From the IMG/VR virus record IMGVR_UViG_3300020445_000075, positions 1-23,899 of that record: DNA of 23,899 bases. The stretch is one strand, 5' to 3'. Of this stretch, positions 1 through 17,797 are shown piece after piece; the stretch's first letter is position 1; every line of letters begins with the position of its first letter. Under the pieces are notes generated by a model. It made no database searches, was not told where the DNA came from, and was given only the letters and a program-made list of their open reading frames with translations. The translations under genes were made by a program, and so were the position numbers. This stretch comes from a virus.

Positions 1-373
1 TATGGAACTCCTCAATAGATGCCCTAAGTAAGAGTTGTACATCGTTCGTTGTGTTATCTGCCTCATCAATGATGATGACCTTGGGACCACCCACAAGGGA
101 AACAGTTGATGCAAAGTTTTTGGCTTGATTTCTAACTGTGTCCAGAAACCGTCCTTCATCCGAACCATTAATAACATAATAATCTGCTCCTATTTCTTCA
201 CACAATGCCTTTGCTACTGTGGTCTTACCTATACCTGGTGGACCTGACAGTAATAGATTTGGTATCTTCTTCTGCTCTACAAACTTACGTAGAACAGTCT
301 TGAGATTATCAGGAAGAATACAATCCTCTATCTTACGAGGACGGTACTGTTCACACCATAGAAAATCAGACAT
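1..373 (-). CDS. 44: Clamp loader large subunit gp44 (N-terminal part, cut by window edge)
   Basis: AAA+ ATPase of the T4-type sliding-clamp loader, which with gp62 opens gp45 and places it on primer-template DNA. Reading from the ATG at 373 gives about 124 residues before the window ends. Seen: an N-terminal WCEQYRPRKIEDCILP segment typical of clamp loaders, a Walker A GPPGIGKT near residue 45, and a Walker B IIIDEAD near residue 100. The start overlaps the stop of the upstream oxygenase gene by 8 bases, which suggests translational coupling. The gene lies two places after the clamp gene gp45, as expected for the replication module. The C-terminal domains are outside the window. Identification is firm from the motifs and context. 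Confidence 0.93.
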   Translation of the reverse strand, partial: MSDFLWCEQYRPRKIEDCILPDNLKTVLRKFVEQKKIPNLLLSGPPGIGKTTVAKALCEEIGADYYVINGSDEGRFLDTVRNQAKNFASTVSLVGGPKVIIIDEADNTTNDVQLLLRASIEEFH

Positions 374-935
374 AGAGAGTCTCAGGGGATTGCATAATAT
401 TAAATGAGAATATAATTCTATCCTCAGCAGCAGCGTGTGGTAACGACTGGTGCATAACTTGTGATGGGAAGAAGATTATATCACCCTCTTCACATTTTGG
501 AATAGTCTCATCAATGAATCCAGACCAAGGGTCAGGAAATGGTGAGAAGAAACAAGTTGGTTTGTGTGCTCTACCCAACTGTGCATAGAACACTGCTGAG
601 TAACCTATCACACCGTGAGTATGTACAGGGTGCATCTGATTAGCACCATACTTCTGACACCAAGAACTCATTACAGTGGCACCAGGATTATCATCAGCAA
701 AGAAGTCCAGTGGACCTTGAAGGATCTCCATTAGATCCATATGATATGGTGGTTGCTCACCTTGAGCAAAGTACCTGAAGTAATCACTATAACAATGATC
801 TAATTGACACTCAGGATCCTGCCAGTTAACAAGTGACAAGAAATCCCTCTTCACATCCTGCCACTCAGGTACGTGTGCAATTACACAGGGTAGTCTGAAT
901 AGGTCTTGCTTGAGGGATATCATTGTTGGTTTCAT
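366..935 (-). CDS. 2OG-Fe(II) oxygenase-like protein A
   Basis: Probable 2-oxoglutarate/Fe(II)-dependent dioxygenase of the double-stranded beta-helix fold (189 aa); substrate unknown. Seen: candidate iron ligands in HTHG (H105, H107), a beta-rich stretch, then GDIIFFPSQVMHQ with the distal histidine H162, followed by EDRIIFSFNI with R173 as the likely 2-oxoglutarate carboxylate anchor. This order matches the small oxygenase-like proteins common in cyanomyoviruses (PF13759-like). The start overlaps the gp45 stop as ATGA and the end overlaps the gp44 start by 8 bases, so the gene is wedged between clamp and clamp loader. The motif family is well supported. Whether it acts on nucleic acid, protein or a metabolite cannot be told from sequence. 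Confidence 0.8.
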   Translation of the reverse strand: MKPTMISLKQDLFRLPCVIAHVPEWQDVKRDFLSLVNWQDPECQLDHCYSDYFRYFAQGEQPPYHMDLMEILQGPLDFFADDNPGATVMSSWCQKYGANQMHPVHTHGVIGYSAVFYAQLGRAHKPTCFFSPFPDPWSGFIDETIPKCEEGDIIFFPSQVMHQSLPHAAAEDRIIFSFNIMQSPETLYV

Positions 936-2122: not shown

Positions 2123-3193
2123 TCAGTTTGGTTGATCAGTCAAGTCATCCTTATTGAAGTCAGCATCGATCTTATCATATAGTTCTAAGAACGCTTGCTT
2201 AGTCTCATCATCGAAACGATTGATGGAGAACTGGATAGCATCTTCCTTTGAACCAAAGATAGAGTATGCCTTGACAATGTGTACTAAACGACGTGTTGAG
2301 ATTAATTCATCGATACCTCCGTCTGCGAAGGTCTTACGAATGATCTGTGCCCAGTCAGCAAGACGTGAACAGAAGTCTGAATCAGCACATTGCTTGTTCA
2401 GAATCTTAACTTCTGTCACTGGTGTTGGATATTCTTGCTCCAAGGTGATCGCAAATCTCTCAAGGAACGCTTCATTAAGTACATTGGTACCTATGAATCG
2501 TCCATCGTCTGAACCCTTACCCTTTGTGTTTGCAGTGGCAATCACATTGAAGCCAGGTGCTGGTTTCACATACTTACCGATCTTTTTAAGGAAGACACCC
2601 TTACCTTCTAGTACAGACTGTAAGCATAGGATCTTGTTAGAAGCGAGATCAATCTCATCTAGAAGAAGGATAGCTCCCCTTTCCAGTGCTTCGATAACTG
2701 GTCCATTATGCCATACAGTGCTGCCGTCACTAAGACGGAACCCACCAATAAGGTCATCCTCGTCGGTTTCAATTGTAATGTTAACTCTAATCAACTCTCT
2801 ATTTAGAGAACTAGCAGCTTGCTCTACACCAAATGTCTTACCGTTGCCTGAGAGACCCTGAATATACGTTGGGTAGAAAACCTTTGACTTGATAATCTTC
2901 TTAATAGAGTTAAAGTTTCCAAACGGAACATAAGCATCATCCCTAGCAGGAACCAAAGATGCTTTAGGATTTGTTACTTGCTTCTCAAATACTTCACGTG
3001 CTTCTTCAACAGTCAAAGACCAAGTACCTTTACCTGATGGTCTTGCTCCTAGTCTCTTGATTCTATTAACCAGACTTTGATACCTAATACCAAATCCTTG
3101 TGCTGCATCTCTTAATTCTGCGCTTGTAATTTCAGACTTACCTTTAAGGAATGCTTGTAAGTCATCGTGGGAAAGTTTTGTTGGAAAGGTCAT
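2123..3193 (-). CDS. cobS: CobS/MoxR-like AAA+ ATPase
   Basis: AAA+ ATPase (356 aa) of the kind annotated as CobS in cyanophages, after the small ATPase subunit of aerobic cobaltochelatase. Seen: a helical N-terminal region (about 1 to 80), Walker A GLSGNGKT (113 to 120), a MoxR/CobS-type TDEDDLIGGF segment (about 143 to 152), Walker B ILLLDEID (175 to 182), sensor 1 ATANT (219 to 223), an arginine-finger region LNEAFLERF (R246) and a sensor-2-like STRRLVHIV near 300. The next gene upstream encodes a VWA protein with a complete metal site. MoxR/CobS ATPases typically work with VWA partners, so the two likely form one machine. Cobalt chelation itself is not shown by the sequence. The gene has its own intergenic gap after a terminator. 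Confidence 0.85.
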   Translation of the reverse strand: MTFPTKLSHDDLQAFLKGKSEITSAELRDAAQGFGIRYQSLVNRIKRLGARPSGKGTWSLTVEEAREVFEKQVTNPKASLVPARDDAYVPFGNFNSIKKIIKSKVFYPTYIQGLSGNGKTFGVEQAASSLNRELIRVNITIETDEDDLIGGFRLSDGSTVWHNGPVIEALERGAILLLDEIDLASNKILCLQSVLEGKGVFLKKIGKYVKPAPGFNVIATANTKGKGSDDGRFIGTNVLNEAFLERFAITLEQEYPTPVTEVKILNKQCADSDFCSRLADWAQIIRKTFADGGIDELISTRRLVHIVKAYSIFGSKEDAIQFSINRFDDETKQAFLELYDKIDADFNKDDLTDQPN

Positions 3194-3215
3194 AGTGCTT
3201 GTCTTGTATGAATCA

Positions 3216-3224
3216 AGTATAATA
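3216..3224 (-). promoter_or_regulatory. Possible -10-like elements upstream of the CobS-like gene
   Basis: Directly after the T-tract of the terminator that ends the VWA gene, the minus strand reads TATATTATACTTG. This holds overlapping -10-like hexamers (TATTAT at 3219 to 3224, TATACT at 3216 to 3221), 22 to 30 bases before the ATG at 3193. A terminator between two co-oriented genes suggests that the downstream gene needs its own start. No convincing -35 box is present, so this is a weak call. Confidence 0.3.
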
Positions 3225-3225
3225 T

Positions 3226-3249
3226 AAAAAAGGGGGTGATGTACCCCCT
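3226..3249 (-). terminator. Rho-independent terminator after the VWA/HExxH gene
   Basis: On the minus strand AGGGGGT, a 5-base loop ACATC, then ACCCCCT and a run of T. That is a perfect 7-bp stem, G/C-rich in the middle, followed by five further T. It begins 9 bases after the TAA of the VWA gene and lies before the start of the CobS-like gene. This is a standard intrinsic terminator layout. Confidence 0.88.
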
Positions 3250-3258
3250 AGTGTTCAC

Positions 3259-5466
3259 TTATCCAACTGTCTCAGCGAATGATGTGAGCATCTTTTTGTT
3301 GTTCGCTTTGTTCTTGAACATCTTCTTGAATGCTGAACCGATCTGTCCCTTAGTTGCATCCTCTTTAAGATCATCTAATGATGTTTCATCAGATTGTGAT
3401 AATGATGGCATCACATACAACTTGTCATAAGGTGAATCAGTACACTCATAGAACTTCTGCTTTCTAAACTTCCTAACTGCATCCTCATAGTAACCCTTAT
3501 AGAATCCCATAAAGGAGATCAGTCTGAAATACTGCTTGACATCACGTGGTGTTACTAGTCTGAATCCTAATACACTAACTTGTGGTAATGAATCCTTAAG
3601 GTGCTGAAGGAATACATTCAACTGTTGAGTTGGATTATCTTGTCTTGAATATGTTCTTCCAGTCTTACGATCACGTAACTGGCAACGACCATTGAAAGAA
3701 TTGATCCATAACTTCTCTTCACCTATTAGATCTGAATACTTAGCATACAGATGATCCCGACGACAAGCATATTGAGGTGGTGCAGACTCACCATCAGAGA
3801 GAATAGTTAGAGAGATCTTCTCAGCACCAGTCTCCTTTTGGAAAGTTGGGATCACTGACTGCATAGAAGCAACTGCTTCAATCAATGGTGTCCCAGATAG
3901 AGATAGTATTGGTGGGCATCCCATATTGTATACACGTGCATACATCTTAGGTAGATAGCTATTAGTACCAGCATTTCTCCAGAGTGATAATGCAAGACGA
4001 TCCTGTTCCTTCTTACTTGCATCAGATGAGAGCATTTCTAGGAGACCAAATCCCTTATTGAAAGAGATACATCCCGCTTTCTCATCGAACTTATCTGTGG
4101 ATGGCTCGTAGTAATTAGAGAAACCATAAGCACTATTGGTGAAAGCGTAGACCCTGAAAGGGATCTGAACCTTCTGACAGAACCAAGTTAGTTGAAGAAC
4201 CTGCTTCACTGTATCCATTAAGCAATTGCTCATTGAACCTGACCAGTCAAGTAAGAAGATCATACCGTGGTTCTTACCATCAGGGATGACTGTTACCTTC
4301 TTAAAAAGATCCTCGTTGTATCTGTAAGTATGAAGCTTCGTTGTATCGAGAACCCCAGTGCGACTAGTAGTAGCACGAGCATACGCCGAAGCTGATTTCC
4401 TGCACTCAAATTCTTTGACAAGGTAGTTGACCTCCTTTTGTGATTGCTTAAAGAACTCTCTAAACTCTTCTTCAGATCTAAGTATATCACCCTGTTCGTA
4501 ATTGTATCTATGCTGTTCGTGATCATTTGTAGGAGTATCAAGAGTGTATCTTTCTTCAGATACTTTAAGGATCTCTTTCCAAGAGATAACTAACTTCTTA
4601 GTATCAACTTTAGGTATCTCAATATACTCAACCTCATAACCACCAGTCTCTGCATATTCCTTAACCTTCTCTGTGAATGCTTTATCAGTCAATGCTTGGA
4701 ATGGATCACCTGATTCTTCTCCAGCATCTTTGAATGACTCACTAGTATCCTCTGTTACATCACTACCCTCTGCCTCAGTACCATCGTCAGTATCAGCATC
4801 AATTGGTGGAATATCTGATTCTGCATCTTGTGAATCATCACCTAGATCAGGATTTGATTGACCTTGTGGTTGTGGTAACTCAAAAGAAGTGTCACCTTCT
4901 CCTTCAGACTCTTCTTTGTCTTGCTCATACTGCTCTTTCATATAATCATAGATCTCAACAGCAAGTGCTTCAACTTCTTCGAAGGTCTCACATTGACCAA
5001 CCTTCTCTACATACTCCTGCTCCTCATCAGTGAATGGGATGAAACGAAAGTTACCAACCTTATACTGTAGGTTGATCTTATCAATCAAAGAAAACTTATT
5101 AATATTATCTTGTACATCAAAGAAATCCTCTCCATCTAACTCCTTATAACCTGCATAGAAAGTCTTTGGAAGACCTTGGTATCTACGCTTCATCAACTTC
5201 TCTATACGTGCATCCTCTATAACGTTAAGGAATGACTGAGGAACCTTACCATACTCCCACTCTCTTGGAGTGTATAGAGCGTGTCCTACTTCGTGTGATA
5301 CGAGCATATCATATACGTTCTCAGATGCCTTATCCCAGATGGGAAGAGTAAGTACCCTACGCTCTACATCGAACTGAGCAGTCTCGCACTTGCGATGCTC
5401 AACTATTAGATCCTCAGTAGCAAGTAGTTTTGCTAGGGTTCCTTTGACTTCTCTGTTGACGGTCAT
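3259..5466 (-). CDS. VWA-domain protein with N-terminal HExxH metallopeptidase-like motif (CobT/NorD-like; cyanophage 'peptidase')
   Basis: Large protein (735 aa) in three parts. The N-terminal part carries HEVGH (58 to 62) followed by NVIEDARIE (81 to 89), the layout of a gluzincin-type zinc site with E84 as possible third ligand. Residues about 180 to 260 are an acidic Asp/Glu/Ser-rich linker. The C-terminal half is a VWA domain with a complete MIDAS: DWSGS (D407, S409, S411), T526 in SGTPLIEA, and D558 in LSDGES. The next gene is a CobS/MoxR-like AAA+ ATPase, the usual partner of CobT/NorD-like VWA proteins. The ATG at 5466 has GAGGAAATGA upstream. Cyanophage relatives are usually annotated as peptidase; catalysis and substrate are unproven. 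A terminator follows. Confidence 0.8.
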   Translation of the reverse strand: MTVNREVKGTLAKLLATEDLIVEHRKCETAQFDVERRVLTLPIWDKASENVYDMLVSHEVGHALYTPREWEYGKVPQSFLNVIEDARIEKLMKRRYQGLPKTFYAGYKELDGEDFFDVQDNINKFSLIDKINLQYKVGNFRFIPFTDEEQEYVEKVGQCETFEEVEALAVEIYDYMKEQYEQDKEESEGEGDTSFELPQPQGQSNPDLGDDSQDAESDIPPIDADTDDGTEAEGSDVTEDTSESFKDAGEESGDPFQALTDKAFTEKVKEYAETGGYEVEYIEIPKVDTKKLVISWKEILKVSEERYTLDTPTNDHEQHRYNYEQGDILRSEEEFREFFKQSQKEVNYLVKEFECRKSASAYARATTSRTGVLDTTKLHTYRYNEDLFKKVTVIPDGKNHGMIFLLDWSGSMSNCLMDTVKQVLQLTWFCQKVQIPFRVYAFTNSAYGFSNYYEPSTDKFDEKAGCISFNKGFGLLEMLSSDASKKEQDRLALSLWRNAGTNSYLPKMYARVYNMGCPPILSLSGTPLIEAVASMQSVIPTFQKETGAEKISLTILSDGESAPPQYACRRDHLYAKYSDLIGEEKLWINSFNGRCQLRDRKTGRTYSRQDNPTQQLNVFLQHLKDSLPQVSVLGFRLVTPRDVKQYFRLISFMGFYKGYYEDAVRKFRKQKFYECTDSPYDKLYVMPSLSQSDETSLDDLKEDATKGQIGSAFKKMFKNKANNKKMLTSFAETVG

Positions 5467-5635
5467 TCATTTCCTCGTGTATGTACATATAATAATACGA
5501 AACCCCTCGCTTGGAGGGGTTGAGTAGACGCTTTATCAACTGTCTGCGTCGCTCTCTAGCAGAACGCAATGCCTGTGGTTTAAGTTTTCGTTTCGGTGGC
5601 TTCCCCGAATTGTGTTGCCAGTTTGGAGTGGTCAT
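5414..5635 (-). CDS. Small basic protein, 73 aa, unknown function
   Basis: Starts MTTPNWQHNSGKPPKRKLKP and is very rich in Arg and Lys in its first two thirds (for example RSARERRRQLIKRLL), which suggests nucleic-acid binding. The ATG overlaps the stop of the upstream oxygenase gene as ATGA, the join used by most neighbours, so initiation here is plausible. Two oddities: the end overlaps the VWA gene by 53 bases, and the codons for NPSKRGV form a perfect 8-bp hairpin. The last 20 or so residues could therefore be incidental, with the selected part being the basic N-terminal region. No family was recognised. Confidence 0.6.
   Translation of the reverse strand: MTTPNWQHNSGKPPKRKLKPQALRSARERRRQLIKRLLNPSKRGVSYYYMYIHEEMNDRQQRSQRNPSKTTCY
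5501..5521 (-). other. Perfect 8-bp stem-loop inside the small basic gene, ahead of the VWA gene
   Basis: The minus strand reads AACCCCTC, loop CAAGC, then GAGGGGTT: an uninterrupted 8-bp stem 35 bases upstream of the VWA start. It is followed by TCGTATTATTATATG, AT-rich but without a true T-run, so it is at best a weak terminator. It could be an attenuator, an RNA processing site or a structure regulating the next gene. The same sequence encodes residues of the overlapping small protein. Confidence 0.5.
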
Positions 5636-6174
5636 TTTGCATTGAAGGCTACTGATACTCTAGGAGTATCTATAAGGTTCTTTTCAGTTTTATGTTCTAA
5701 CCAAGATGGGAATAGTATCAAAGTCCTTGGTGTAGCAGGGAAGTGACGACCTTCCTCTGTACCCCAGAGACACATCTTAGAATAAGGATTGGGATTGATG
5801 AATACGATCCCACCCATATCAGGAACACAGTCCTGATGATAGTATACACCAGACACTGAGAAACCAGCGTGGGTGTGTGCAATTTGGAAACTGTCCTTCG
5901 GTCCCCTATTCAACCAGGACTGCGCTATCGTGACTATAGGATCAATACTCGCTAATGACTTTTCACAGAACGCTCTCAACCGTGGCAAATTATATTTCTG
6001 AAACAACTGGAGATCGTTCATCCCTGTATGTGACCCATAGAGAATTTCTTCCTTGGCACCTACACTCAGGTGAGATAGGATGTCTGGATCATCAGGAATT
6101 CCATCGATCTCCTCGTCAATAATAGGATCATCGTGAACGAACACGTGTAAGTGCGTGGGGAAAAGTTCGACCAT
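5632..6174 (-). CDS. 2OG-Fe(II) oxygenase-like protein B
   Basis: Second small dioxygenase-like protein (180 aa from the ATG at 6174). Seen: AHTHAGFSVSGVYYHQ with H100 and H102 as candidate iron ligands, a FINPNP segment, TLILFPSWLEH with distal H161, and PRVSVAFN with R172. This is a close fit to the PF13759-type oxygenases. The frame is open further upstream to 6249, but that would overlap the 55-codon gene by 67 bases; the ATG at 6174 follows an AAGGAG about 14 bases away and leaves an 8-base gap. A GTG at 6186 is an alternative start. The end joins the basic small gene by an ATGA overlap. Substrate unknown. Confidence 0.82.
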   Translation of the reverse strand: MVELFPTHLHVFVHDDPIIDEEIDGIPDDPDILSHLSVGAKEEILYGSHTGMNDLQLFQKYNLPRLRAFCEKSLASIDPIVTIAQSWLNRGPKDSFQIAHTHAGFSVSGVYYHQDCVPDMGGIVFINPNPYSKMCLWGTEEGRHFPATPRTLILFPSWLEHKTEKNLIDTPRVSVAFNAK

Positions 6175-6182
6175 AAAATCGA

Positions 6183-6350
6183 TCACTTCTCCTTGGAACG
6201 ATTGATCAGAGATATGAATTTGTCGTTGGCAAACGTGCCACCTAGACAAACATCAATCTCGTCACCATCCTTCCAGTTCTCAGTACCATCCTTCTTGGTA
6301 TGTGCTAGTGCCTCAGTGAGGTCATCAATAATCTTTTGGGTAATTTTCAT
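6183..6350 (-). CDS. Small acidic/charged protein, 55 aa, unknown function
   Basis: Starts MKITQKIIDDLTEALAHTKK, includes DEIDVCLGGTFANDKFISL and ends NRSKEK. It is a soluble, charged protein with no recognised domain. The ATG overlaps the stop of the membrane-protein gene as ATGA, and the frame fills the gap to oxygenase B. The sequence context of its last codons, AAGGAGAAG, also supplies the Shine-Dalgarno for that oxygenase. The balanced, protein-like composition and coupling make a real gene likely; function is unknown. Confidence 0.72.
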   Translation of the reverse strand: MKITQKIIDDLTEALAHTKKDGTENWKDGDEIDVCLGGTFANDKFISLINRSKEK

Positions 6351-6631
6351 CCTTGCCAAATCATATCAGGCATTGCTTGTTGCCCTGGTCTTAATACGAA
6401 CAACAGTATAGCATAGCATACAAACCAAATGATATTAAATATCCACGCTTGTCGATACAAATATTTACGTACTGCCATAGCACGAGCAACCATCTTACGA
6501 TCTTGATCCCACTCTTCATTACTAATCCTTCTTATGATCTGTTCTATAATCACTGCAACAATAGTTCCTATCACTAGAGGATAGAATACAAAGTTTGCAA
6601 ATGACATTATTGAAATTAAAAAAGCCATCAT
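6347..6631 (-). CDS. Small two-helix membrane protein, 94 aa
   Basis: Two hydrophobic segments are clear: about residues 4 to 29 (includes FVFYPLVIGTIVAVII) and 62 to 81 (includes AWIFNIIWFVCYAILLFVL). They are joined by a charged loop rich in Arg, Glu and Asp. This suggests a hairpin in the host inner membrane. The ATG overlaps the stop of oxygenase C as ATGA; a second ATG follows at once. Its own stop overlaps the next small gene the same way. It could be a holin-like or a membrane-remodelling protein, but nothing in the sequence decides this and no lysis gene is adjacent, so no function is assigned. Confidence 0.75.
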   Translation of the reverse strand: MMAFLISIMSFANFVFYPLVIGTIVAVIIEQIIRRISNEEWDQDRKMVARAMAVRKYLYRQAWIFNIIWFVCYAILLFVLRPGQQAMPDMIWQG

Positions 6632-7206
6632 CGGGGTCTCGGTAAATTAGGGAATCGGTCTTGTCTTACATCATCTGGAATGGACATCATAAAACTGACT
6701 GTCCATCGTTCATCTACTTCTTCATTCATTCTTACTTCGTGATCCTGATAACCTGGCCAGAAATATAGATCACCTTCACGTGGTATCTGACAATGTGTTG
6801 TTGGCCAATAAGGTCTTATTCTCCAGAGTGACTCTACTGCGTGTGCAGGATGATAGAGAAAAAGGTCACCAGTGTTGCCAGGTGGAACCTGAAGATAGTA
6901 GGTTCCTGCAACATCAGCCTCGGCGTGGTTGTGACGCATTTGGAAACCGCCCTGTGGATTGATGTTAACCCAACAGTGTGTAACCACGAGTTCAGGATCA
7001 AATAGTTCCTGCTTCTGTAACAAAAGTTCATTAAAGTCAGGATACTCCTTATGTATCTGATCATTAGTATGGATTGTACTGTATCCCGTACCATAGAATT
7101 TGTTTTCCTCACAACAGAATTCATCACGTCTCTCTAATAAAGCCTTACGTAACTTACAATGATCTTGAAACTCATTGTTGCTTGTATAGAATGGTATATC
7201 AAACAT
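6628..7206 (-). CDS. 2OG-Fe(II) oxygenase-like protein C
   Basis: Third dioxygenase-like protein (192 aa). Seen: GGFQMRHNHAEADVAGTYYL with H92 and H94 as candidate iron ligands, GDLFLYHPA, then GDLYFWPGYQDHEV with distal H156 and DERWTVSFMM with R167. The frame is open to 7260, but the ATG at 7206 is preferred: it follows AAGG at a suitable distance, overlaps the gp46 stop by only 8 bases, and begins MFDIPFYTSN without the hydrophobic extension. It differs clearly from A and B outside the motif blocks, so these are diverged family members and not recent duplicates. Substrate unknown. Confidence 0.82.
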   Translation of the reverse strand: MFDIPFYTSNNEFQDHCKLRKALLERRDEFCCEENKFYGTGYSTIHTNDQIHKEYPDFNELLLQKQELFDPELVVTHCWVNINPQGGFQMRHNHAEADVAGTYYLQVPPGNTGDLFLYHPAHAVESLWRIRPYWPTTHCQIPREGDLYFWPGYQDHEVRMNEEVDERWTVSFMMSIPDDVRQDRFPNLPRPR

Positions 7207-8920
7207 CTTCAAACACCTTAGAAAATTCATTAACCTTATCAAACTTGATAGTTCTATCAAACTTGTCTAGGAGTACATCACCCTTGTGAGAGATAATAAA
7301 CATATTAGTATTGGTGGAAGTGATCTCCTTAAGGATCTTAAGCAGTTCTTCAGTCGCTGTATTATCTAGTGAACTATCAAACACTTCATCTAGTATCAAA
7401 AGATTTGTAATGATAGAGTTCTTTAACTTAGCAACGTGCCTCCAAGTAAAGAGTAGTGCTAGGTCAATCTTCTGCTTCTCACCCTCAGAGAATGATGAGT
7501 ATGAGAATCTATCACGGTGACGTGACTTGATTACTTCACTGAACTCTTCATCCAAAGTGAAATTAATATATGTATCCATTGATGTCAGATACTTATTGAT
7601 CCTTTGATTGATGATAGGAATGTACTTAGATATAATTCTTGCCTTAATACCACCATCCTTTAGGAGACCACCAACTAACTTAAAGTCTTGTGCTTCCTTA
7701 TTGACACCTGAACAAGTAGTCTCCTTCTCATCAAACTCATCTTGTAGTTTGGTTAGTAGTTCCTGTTCCCCTTTAATGTCTGGTTGATCACCTAGAGATC
7801 TAATCTGTGTCAGAATATCTGTATTCTGTTTCATCAATTTCTGTTCTTCATTTACCAGACGACGTATTTCAAATTGAAATTCTGTTACGTTAGATGTATC
7901 AGTCCTTAGTTTCTCAATAGTTCTAAGGTTTCTACTGACCTGCTTCTCTAACTCAGATGCTGCATCATTAAGTTCTTGTTCCTTAGAGGTTAAGTTATTA
8001 ATCTTAACCTTTCTAAACTTATCTTCAATATCCTGTGAGCATACAGGACAAGAAGAATTATCTTCGAAGAATTTAATATCCTTATTTACCTTCTCACATC
8101 TAGCATCTATCTTACTCATAATACCAAATGCCTTCTGATACTCTGCTTCCTTAGCAACCAACTTAGTACTAGCATCACTAAGTTTATTAATATTATCTTG
8201 GAACTGTCCTATCTCTTCCTTGAGAGTACACATTCGTTGCTCATTCTCATCAAACCTCTGTTGTTGATGTGCAATACGTTCCTTGTTTACAGTAGTCAGT
8301 TTTGATAGTACCTTCTCCTGTGCTCTAATATTATTAGTTGCCATCTCCAACTCGTGCTTACACTCACGTAACACTGCATTGTTATCCTTCACACGCTCCT
8401 TCAGGAGCATATTCATATAAGAAAATATCTGTATGTCCAGTAGATCCTCAATAACTTCTCTCCTATGAGGAGCACTCAACTGCATAAAGGGAACAAATGT
8501 ACTACTCCCTAGTATAACCACCTGTGTAAATGACTTAAAGTTTAATTTTAATATGCTTTGCTCAAGGTATTTCTGGTAGTCTCTATTAGCAGCATCCTGA
8601 TCTATGAGAGTATCATTACGATACATCTCAAACACACCAGGCTTTATACCACGTACTACCTTATATTCTATCGTACCAATCTTAAATTCTATCTCTACAA
8701 TAGTCTCACGCTCATTAATACTATTAACTAACTGTGACTTTGTGATTTTCCTGAATGGTTTGTTGAATAATCCAAAGCACAAGGCATCCAACATCGTTGA
8801 TTTACCAGCACCGTTCGATCCAATGACTAGAGTGGATACAGTTTTAGTAAAATCGATCTCAGTGAACTGGTTGCCTGTACTTAGAAAATTCTTCCAACGA
8901 ATCTTCTCAAAGGTGATCAT
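7199..8920 (-). CDS. 46: Recombination endonuclease subunit gp46 (Rad50/SbcC-like ATPase)
   Basis: SMC-like ATPase that with gp47 forms the T4 Mre11/Rad50-type nuclease, which resects DNA ends for recombination-dependent replication and degrades host DNA. Length 573 aa, close to T4 gp46 (560). Seen: Walker A GSNGAGKS (34 to 41), a long coiled coil from about 170 to 400 interrupted by the zinc-hook CPVC (291 to 294), ABC signature FSEGEKQ (477 to 483), Walker B LLILDEVF (507 to 514) and a switch histidine in ISHKGD (about 545). The ATG overlaps the stop of the DUF3110-like gene as ATGA. All catalytic elements are intact. Confidence 0.96.
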   Translation of the reverse strand: MITFEKIRWKNFLSTGNQFTEIDFTKTVSTLVIGSNGAGKSTMLDALCFGLFNKPFRKITKSQLVNSINERETIVEIEFKIGTIEYKVVRGIKPGVFEMYRNDTLIDQDAANRDYQKYLEQSILKLNFKSFTQVVILGSSTFVPFMQLSAPHRREVIEDLLDIQIFSYMNMLLKERVKDNNAVLRECKHELEMATNNIRAQEKVLSKLTTVNKERIAHQQQRFDENEQRMCTLKEEIGQFQDNINKLSDASTKLVAKEAEYQKAFGIMSKIDARCEKVNKDIKFFEDNSSCPVCSQDIEDKFRKVKINNLTSKEQELNDAASELEKQVSRNLRTIEKLRTDTSNVTEFQFEIRRLVNEEQKLMKQNTDILTQIRSLGDQPDIKGEQELLTKLQDEFDEKETTCSGVNKEAQDFKLVGGLLKDGGIKARIISKYIPIINQRINKYLTSMDTYINFTLDEEFSEVIKSRHRDRFSYSSFSEGEKQKIDLALLFTWRHVAKLKNSIITNLLILDEVFDSSLDNTATEELLKILKEITSTNTNMFIISHKGDVLLDKFDRTIKFDKVNEFSKVFEDV

Positions 8921-17143: not shown

Positions 17144-17797
17144 CTATAGAGAGTTCATAAGTTTTGCGAATGCGGAAACTTTCATCTCTTCGATTACTTT
17201 TGAGTTGGCAGCATTGTCAAATTGCTGCTCAATTGCGCGGAGTTCACGTTCTTTTAGGATCTTTCCTTCCCAAATCCATTCTCTTCCTTCCATTATTCCA
17301 GATACAAAAGCGTCTGGGGCACTGGGATCTGCTACTATATCAGCAGCAGTGGCAAGCATAAAGTCATCAGCGACAACATTTACACCTTCCTTGTTAACTT
17401 TAAGGGATCCTATTCCGCGAGAAGATACCCCTAACTTGACTCCTTCACCTAAAAGACTACGAGCTATATTACCCATTGGGGTATCTAGTATACGTGCTCT
17501 TCCTTTGAAGTTGCTACCTTCTTGTACTAATGAAGTAATAAGGTGAGATACTCTATCAAGGTTGACAGTAGGACCTTCGGGGTGACCCAATTCTCCTAAT
17601 GCTCTGCCTGACTTGATGAATGACTCATTATATTTATTGACTTCTCTAGCTAGAGTTTCCATAGGGTACATCCTTCCATTGCGATTTTTAATTTCGCCTT
17701 GGAGAAACGTTCCTTCGATATACAGATTCTTCTTACCAGTTTTAGTTTGTTCTTCTAAAACTTGTATGTCATCAATCTGTTCCGTTATCAGTCTCAT
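17144..17797 (-). CDS. 21: Prohead core protease gp21
   Basis: Serine protease that matures the prohead by cleaving gp22, gp23 and other core proteins (217 aa; T4: 212). Seen: GRMYP and the helix following, the catalytic-histidine region GELGHPEGPTVNLDRVSHLI (H72), and the serine region GVKLGVSSRGIG (S125/S126), followed by DDFMLATAADIVADPSAPDA. These blocks are those of the T4-type protease family related in fold to herpesvirus assemblins. The start lies 26 bases inside the end of the gp67-like gene. Its target sites are visible in gp22 and gp23 of this window. Confidence 0.94.
   Translation of the reverse strand: MRLITEQIDDIQVLEEQTKTGKKNLYIEGTFLQGEIKNRNGRMYPMETLAREVNKYNESFIKSGRALGELGHPEGPTVNLDRVSHLITSLVQEGSNFKGRARILDTPMGNIARSLLGEGVKLGVSSRGIGSLKVNKEGVNVVADDFMLATAADIVADPSAPDAFVSGIMEGREWIWEGKILKERELRAIEQQFDNAANSKVIEEMKVSAFAKLMNSL

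Follow-up and report, generated by a model that had tools for sequence, protein, structure and literature searches.

A 23.9-kb viral DNA fragment carrying T4-like genes (IMG/VR record IMGVR_UViG_3300020445_000075, full length 23,899 nt, hereafter the window) encodes an AAA+ ATPase of the MoxR/CobS type next to a VWA-domain protein variously labelled 'peptidase' or 'cobT'. This gene pair is ordinary as such: it is known, core, and wrongly or incompletely named. What is notable here is a strictly conserved zincin-type site that sets the pair apart from cobaltochelatase. We give an even chance to the interpretation that the two proteins constitute an ATP-driven remodelling machine of the MoxR-type AAA+/VWA kind, whose VWA subunit possesses an extra zincin-like (gluzincin) N-terminal domain that is probably proteolytic. 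Its target more likely lies in phage or host DNA replication and recombination than in B12 synthesis; gene neighbourhoods point weakly towards replication or recombination.

A conserved zincin-type site

A preliminary description drawn from the DNA letters had reported the AAA+ and VWA genes side by side, together with HEVGH, EDARIE (residues 84-89), an acidic linker and a complete metal ion-dependent adhesion site (MIDAS). Both open reading frames were confirmed on the minus strand and every motif lies where it had been placed:

2123-3193, minus strand: AAA+ ATPase, MoxR/CobS type ('cobS', phrog_249), 356 aa; Walker A at residues 113-120, Walker B at 176-182, sensor-1 region ATANT at 219-223, NEAFLERF at 240-247, SxRR at 299-302
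3259-5466, minus strand: VWA partner ('peptidase', phrog_459; 'cobT' of viral cobST), 735 aa
4897-5466, minus strand: zincin-like N-terminal domain, residues 1-190 (AlphaFold2 model, invariant site, gluzincin matches)
5281-5295, minus strand: HEVGH, residues 58-62
5206-5226, minus strand: NVIEDAR, residues 81-87, with E84 as predicted third metal ligand
4711-4902, minus strand: acidic linker, about residues 189-252, predicted disordered (predicted local distance difference test, pLDDT, below 50)
3259-4269, minus strand: VWA domain, about residues 400-735, with MIDAS residues D407, S409, S411, T526 and D558

The residues of HExxH, N81, E84, D85, R87 and the MIDAS are unchanging across 38-49 viral homologues of the VWA protein, in an alignment where 49 of 735 columns are invariant, and the Walker motif residues of the AAA+ protein are, except for a few, invariant in about 31 viral homologues. 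Judged from these alignments, the motif residues of the pair are conserved far beyond chance. The intact metallopeptidase-like site proposed earlier holds up in a broader set of 74 diverse N-terminal domains (identity down to 19%), where only nine columns are invariant (P42, H58, E59, H62, L64, N81, E84, D85 and G98) and six of these (H58, E59, H62, N81, E84 and D85) belong to the HExxH/N..ED site. A conserved HExxH followed by a conserved downstream glutamate is the gluzincin arrangement; the third-ligand signature is better written HExxH-x18-N-x-x-E-D-x-R, with 26 residues from H58 to E84.

HExxH is retained in 161 of the 162 mobile-element proteins whose sequence covers the N-terminus, a count that includes many close relatives and so does not represent 161 independent events, at loci mostly not chosen on the motif. 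The sole exception is a Stenotrophomonas phage protein with REVST in its place; the motif is also lost in a Pseudomonas phage protein (SEIAK) and an Acinetobacter plasmid protein (QEVAK) fetched later. These three form one clade, moderately supported (89/90). The Acinetobacter protein has counterparts of ≥99% identity on 125 plasmid records or more, so by record count loss on plasmids is not rare. The preliminary description had named free loss of HEVGH or of the MIDAS among cyanophages as a finding that would tell against it; among viral loci neither is lost in the cyanophage family, and HExxH disappears in the Pseudomonas/Stenotrophomonas/Acinetobacter clade. Wherever both histidines of HExxH are present, its glutamate is too, which favours hydrolysis over plain metal holding.

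An AlphaFold2 model of the N-terminal domain computed from the 74 sequences (pLDDT 84.5, predicted template modelling score 0.79) shows strands at residues 21-25, 31-33 and 38-42, a helix at 49-65 carrying HEVGH and a second helix at 77-95 carrying NVIEDAR. Searched with Foldseek, the model returned only metallopeptidase-type structures among its first twelve matches (selecase/jannalysin, ArdC, BlaR1 and IrrE/PprI; probability up to 1.00), and the first 21 rows obtained with VIA-align were all zincins, including Wss1 and IrrE (Z 4.3-5.5). The modelled domain thus appears to resemble gluzincins best, at weak scores.

The AAA+/VWA core

The AAA+ protein carries GLSGNGKT as Walker A and LLLDEID as Walker B and matches Pfam AAA_5 (E=1.2e-18); it adjoins a VWA protein with a complete MIDAS, the composition of a MoxR AAA+/VWA pair. 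By sequence, the window VWA protein gave no phmmer match in the PDB and nothing useful in Pfam and NCBIfam, and the profile of its family picked up PDB CobT (E 1e-17), along the linker and the VWA half. By structure, the VIA-align comparison of the full protein, which covered residues 338-735, matched the MIDAS domain of MDN1/Rea1 best (Z 17.3, 16.0 and 15.6), then NorD (Z 14.8, Foldseek rank 1-2) and generic VWA domains at about Z 13. The VWA fold is therefore of the NorD kind without being exclusive to it, since Midasin shares it.

Of the 157 related loci holding both genes, none has them on opposite strands, and the VWA gene comes first in 155. Two hairpins accompany the pair in the window:

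3225-3249, minus strand: intrinsic-terminator-like hairpin with T-run, between the VWA and AAA+ genes
5501-5521, minus strand: terminator-like hairpin upstream of the VWA gene

The intergenic hairpin (-13.2 kcal/mol, z -2.3) has comparable counterparts in 38 of 87 related VWA-AAA+ spacers, with stem sequences that differ among related phages, and phage S-CRM01 has an annotated terminator at the equivalent position. The two genes may therefore be expressed separately. The gap between them exceeds 500 bases in 26 loci, and in some relatives (loci L026, L029, L036 and L040) an insertion of about 2.2-2.7 kb keeps the two genes apart. A possible third component of the machine is a DUF3150 protein, encoded between the AAA+ and VWA genes on plasmids of the IncC type and of Vibrio (L078, 2236-3501; L081, 2648-3799). 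Acinetobacter phage YMC13/03/R2096 has the AAA+ gene (locus L061, 4470-5663) and no VWA gene beside it.

Distribution and gene neighbourhood

The portal gene of the window shows 70% identity to cyanophages, and the pair had been presented as a cyanophage matter. The pair is indeed present there, but it is not their speciality. With tblastn, the VWA protein was found in 463 phage records, nearly all of them from T4-like cyanophages or from pelagiphages infecting SAR11, and the AAA+ protein in 540. Remote relatives with both genes occur in Ochrobactrum phage phiOC, Rhizobium phages, Tsukamurella phage TIN4, Salmonella phage SSU5, a Stenotrophomonas phage, Vibrio phage ICP2, Gordonia phages, Pseudomonas Nickie-type phages, Roseobacter phage CRP-810 and Zobellviridae phages. 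VWA relatives are also encoded on nearly 1000 plasmid records, mostly phage-plasmid-like replicons of about 110 kb from Klebsiella, E. coli and Acinetobacter (229 records are Escherichia plasmids), and IncC-type, Vibrio and Geobacillus plasmids carry one together with an AAA+ neighbour. Matches in genome collections look mostly like viral contigs within assemblies. A literature search found no paper on the phage-plasmid or IncC copies of the pair.

In nearly every lineage read, the pair has genes of replication or recombination no more than about 6 kb away: gp45, gp44, gp46 and gp47 in some, DNA polymerase III alpha and ligase in others, and elsewhere primase, helicase and polymerase, a lambda-type exonuclease, or single-stranded DNA-binding protein and primase. 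This recurrence in several independent lineages is suggestive of a link to DNA replication and recombination.

Three 2-oxoglutarate (2OG)-Fe(II) oxygenase genes (phrog_81) surround the pair in the window (366-935, 5632-6249 and 6628-7260), and Mosig has several such genes at the equivalent place. A peptide deformylase gene is near or adjacent to the pair in Mosig and phiOC.

The B12 question

In the literature, the window pair is the T4-like cyanophage form of viral 'cobST' (PMC8651126; PHROGs 249 and 459), whose products were proposed to replace CobS and CobT and hijack host CobN, inserting cobalt into the corrin ring and raising (pseudo)cobalamin; cobT was there called 'mistakenly annotated as a peptidase' (PMC8651126). 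In favour of this proposal, the phage AAA+ protein does align with CobS, the VWA profile does reach CobT, and a Prochlorococcus assembly encodes two CobN/ChlH-family proteins and no CobT, so that a B12 role may still apply in cyanobacterial hosts. The alignment with the CobS model TIGR01650 nevertheless scores 67.8 bits, far under the cut-off of 558.55, and the window VWA protein has no match to the CobT models TIGR01651, PF06213 and PF11775 or to NCBIfam at E up to 1, whereas genuine Rhizobium CobT, from a cobST operon, scores 1110.7 bits to TIGR01651. Neither that CobT, whose aligned region reads ...CHDEKMH...FDAVEQARVE, nor CobT in the PDB has the HExxH that the window-type phage family never loses. 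As had been argued beforehand, the partner is, on its sequence, not a plain CobT.

The doubt previously voiced about a B12 role is likewise borne out. The window genes include no CobN-family gene, and the pair cannot have CobN-dependent B12 synthesis as its general role, because E. coli carries it on phage-plasmids while an E. coli control genome yielded no CobN-family protein; plasmids of E. coli, Klebsiella and Acinetobacter contribute hundreds of records with the VWA gene. A Pseudomonas phage carrying the pair encodes an alpha/beta ribonucleotide reductase, the type that does not need B12. Altogether, we consider the cobaltochelatase proposal quite improbable.

In a Caulobacter vibrioides control genome, a CobT over the cut-off was found with no CobN-family match, so that even cellular CobT may occur without CobN. 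Relatives of the phiOC CobT sought in viral contigs gave none. In trees of the wider AAA+ and VWA sets, support is too weak to place true CobS and CobT. Judging from motif order and domain position rather than from a profile match, CobT, NorD-type and phage proteins seem to share an N-terminal helix pair, with a zincin signature complete only in the mobile-element proteins.

Proposed mechanism and alternatives

NorQ and NorD form a MoxR AAA+/VWA pair that inserts Fe into cytochrome c-dependent nitric oxide reductase (cNOR) (PMC9976466, PMC13036017). In the NorQD scheme, an AAA+ hexamer drives ATP-powered rotation of the VWA subunit that bears the MIDAS (PMC13036017), the N-terminal domain and linker providing a second grip (PMC13036017, PMC9976466); the MIDAS is essential in NorD, and the N-terminal domain has been described as without obvious homology (PMC9976466). 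We carry this scheme over to the phage pair as a reasoned analogy, because the anatomy (AAA+, N-terminal domain, linker, MIDAS-bearing VWA) matches. The AAA+ and VWA proteins would form a complex in which the AAA+ ring drives the VWA subunit, with the MIDAS holding on to an acidic residue of the target. On its tether, the zincin domain would coordinate a metal by H58, H62 and E84, and E59 would serve as the base for a probable cleavage of the engaged target or of the machine itself, while the disordered acidic linker would let the two ends of the VWA protein move.

Several observations weigh against a proteolytic machine acting on replication. Structurally, the N-terminal domain is matched weakly (Foldseek E 0.07 and Z 5.5 at best), and Foldseek scoring takes in some amino-acid signal. 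The neighbourhood null is rough and by eye: in two genomes that were read almost or completely, some 30-40% of the sequence lies equally close to replication or recombination genes. NorD-type proteins function without the catalytic glutamate. The clade devoid of HExxH still has its MIDAS, and proteolysis is therefore unnecessary for the role of the pair there. Since the MIDAS persists where HExxH is lost, the remodelling core is probably the constant and maybe older function, with the peptidase-like site as an old addition that most members have retained, although this order of gain and loss is inferred.

The same machine could instead act as a metal-insertion chaperone that, in the manner of NorQD, opens a target metalloenzyme, with a 2OG-Fe(II) oxygenase of the phage, a peptide deformylase or a ribonucleotide reductase as possible examples; the metal would be held or delivered by the HExxH/E site without any protease activity. 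The VWA fold it shares with NorD speaks for this, as do the flanking oxygenase genes, the deformylase of Mosig and phiOC, and a NorD-type plasmid protein beside a NorQ-like gene that keeps HAAAH...EDARVE, a metal-type site lacking the catalytic glutamate. The NorD-HAAAH homology rests on that one plasmid protein, motif order and its VWA half, because phmmer with the NorD-type N-terminal domain gave no NorD match in the PDB. Yet pure metal holding does not need E59, which is invariant where H58 and H62 are, and the oxygenase neighbours are not common to the SSU5, ICP2 and Gordonia relatives; we rate the chaperone as unlikely. Virion assembly or maturation has a viral precedent in an archaeal virus MoxR/VWA pair, part of a tail assembly system, and is argued here by analogy (PMC7159879). 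Capsid and tail genes are about 9 kb away from the pair in the window. Against such a role, T4-like phages that lack the pair assemble well; in other phages it sits with replication genes, relatives occur on IncC-type conjugative plasmids, which have no virion, and a gp21-like prohead protease gene (17144-17797, assigned from size and position, not by search) is already present in the window. Such a role is highly improbable.

Three further candidates were rejected: an FtsH-like single-chain protease, the AAA+ and zincin being on separate chains; a prohead protease, given the gp21-like gene; and a known defence system, the window protein having no PADLOC match at E up to 1.

The remodelling and proteolytic machine can be extended to a bolder and distinctly unlikely proposal: a MIDAS-gated, ATP-powered metalloprotease of phages, phage-plasmids and conjugative plasmids that would clear or cut proteins during the element's DNA replication and recombination, or destroy host proteins there, its nature masked by B12 annotations, CobT and NorD being descendants or cousins with a decayed protease site.

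Implications

Cyanomyoviruses carry cobS as a core gene (PMC3037559); it serves as a community marker and is routinely listed among viral B12 genes, although whether its B12 role is retained during infection has been stated as unknown (PMC9983427). The conserved zincin-type site makes this long-standing question testable. Should the two proteins indeed work by remodelling or proteolysis, a large class of claims about viral 'auxiliary B12 metabolism' would be wrong, and an ATP-driven machine would prove to be widespread among mobile elements. A testable origin is also offered for the N-terminal domain of NorD.

Comparison with known systems

Residues 1-120 of the phage protein find their best structural counterparts, at weak match scores, in the minigluzincins (jannalysin, selecase and abylysin) and the ArdC/IrrE metallopeptidases, which likewise combine HExxH with a glutamate on the next helix; unlike these, the phage domain is part of a chain with a VWA domain and has an AAA+ protein as its partner. 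Midasin/Rea1 provides the best VWA match (Z 17.3) and its AAA+ domain is a phmmer relative, but it is one giant chain devoted to eukaryotic ribosome assembly, without a zincin domain. NorQ/NorD shares an AAA+ protein and a VWA partner having an N-terminal domain, a long flexible linker and a MIDAS, with matching VWA folds (Z 14.8); it differs in that the NorD-type protein has HAAAH and not HExxH, identity is 12% over the structural alignment and there is no cNOR: neither the identified genes of the window nor the related loci read include any nor gene. CobS/CobT has the same AAA+ and VWA composition with an acidic linker, and the EQARVE helix of CobT corresponds to the phage EDARIE; CobT lacks HExxH, however, and the phage AAA+ is far under the CobS cut-off. 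Finally, where the viral 'cobST' literature deems the peptidase label mistaken, the present data support a conserved zincin-type site, which suggests that this label is at least half right.

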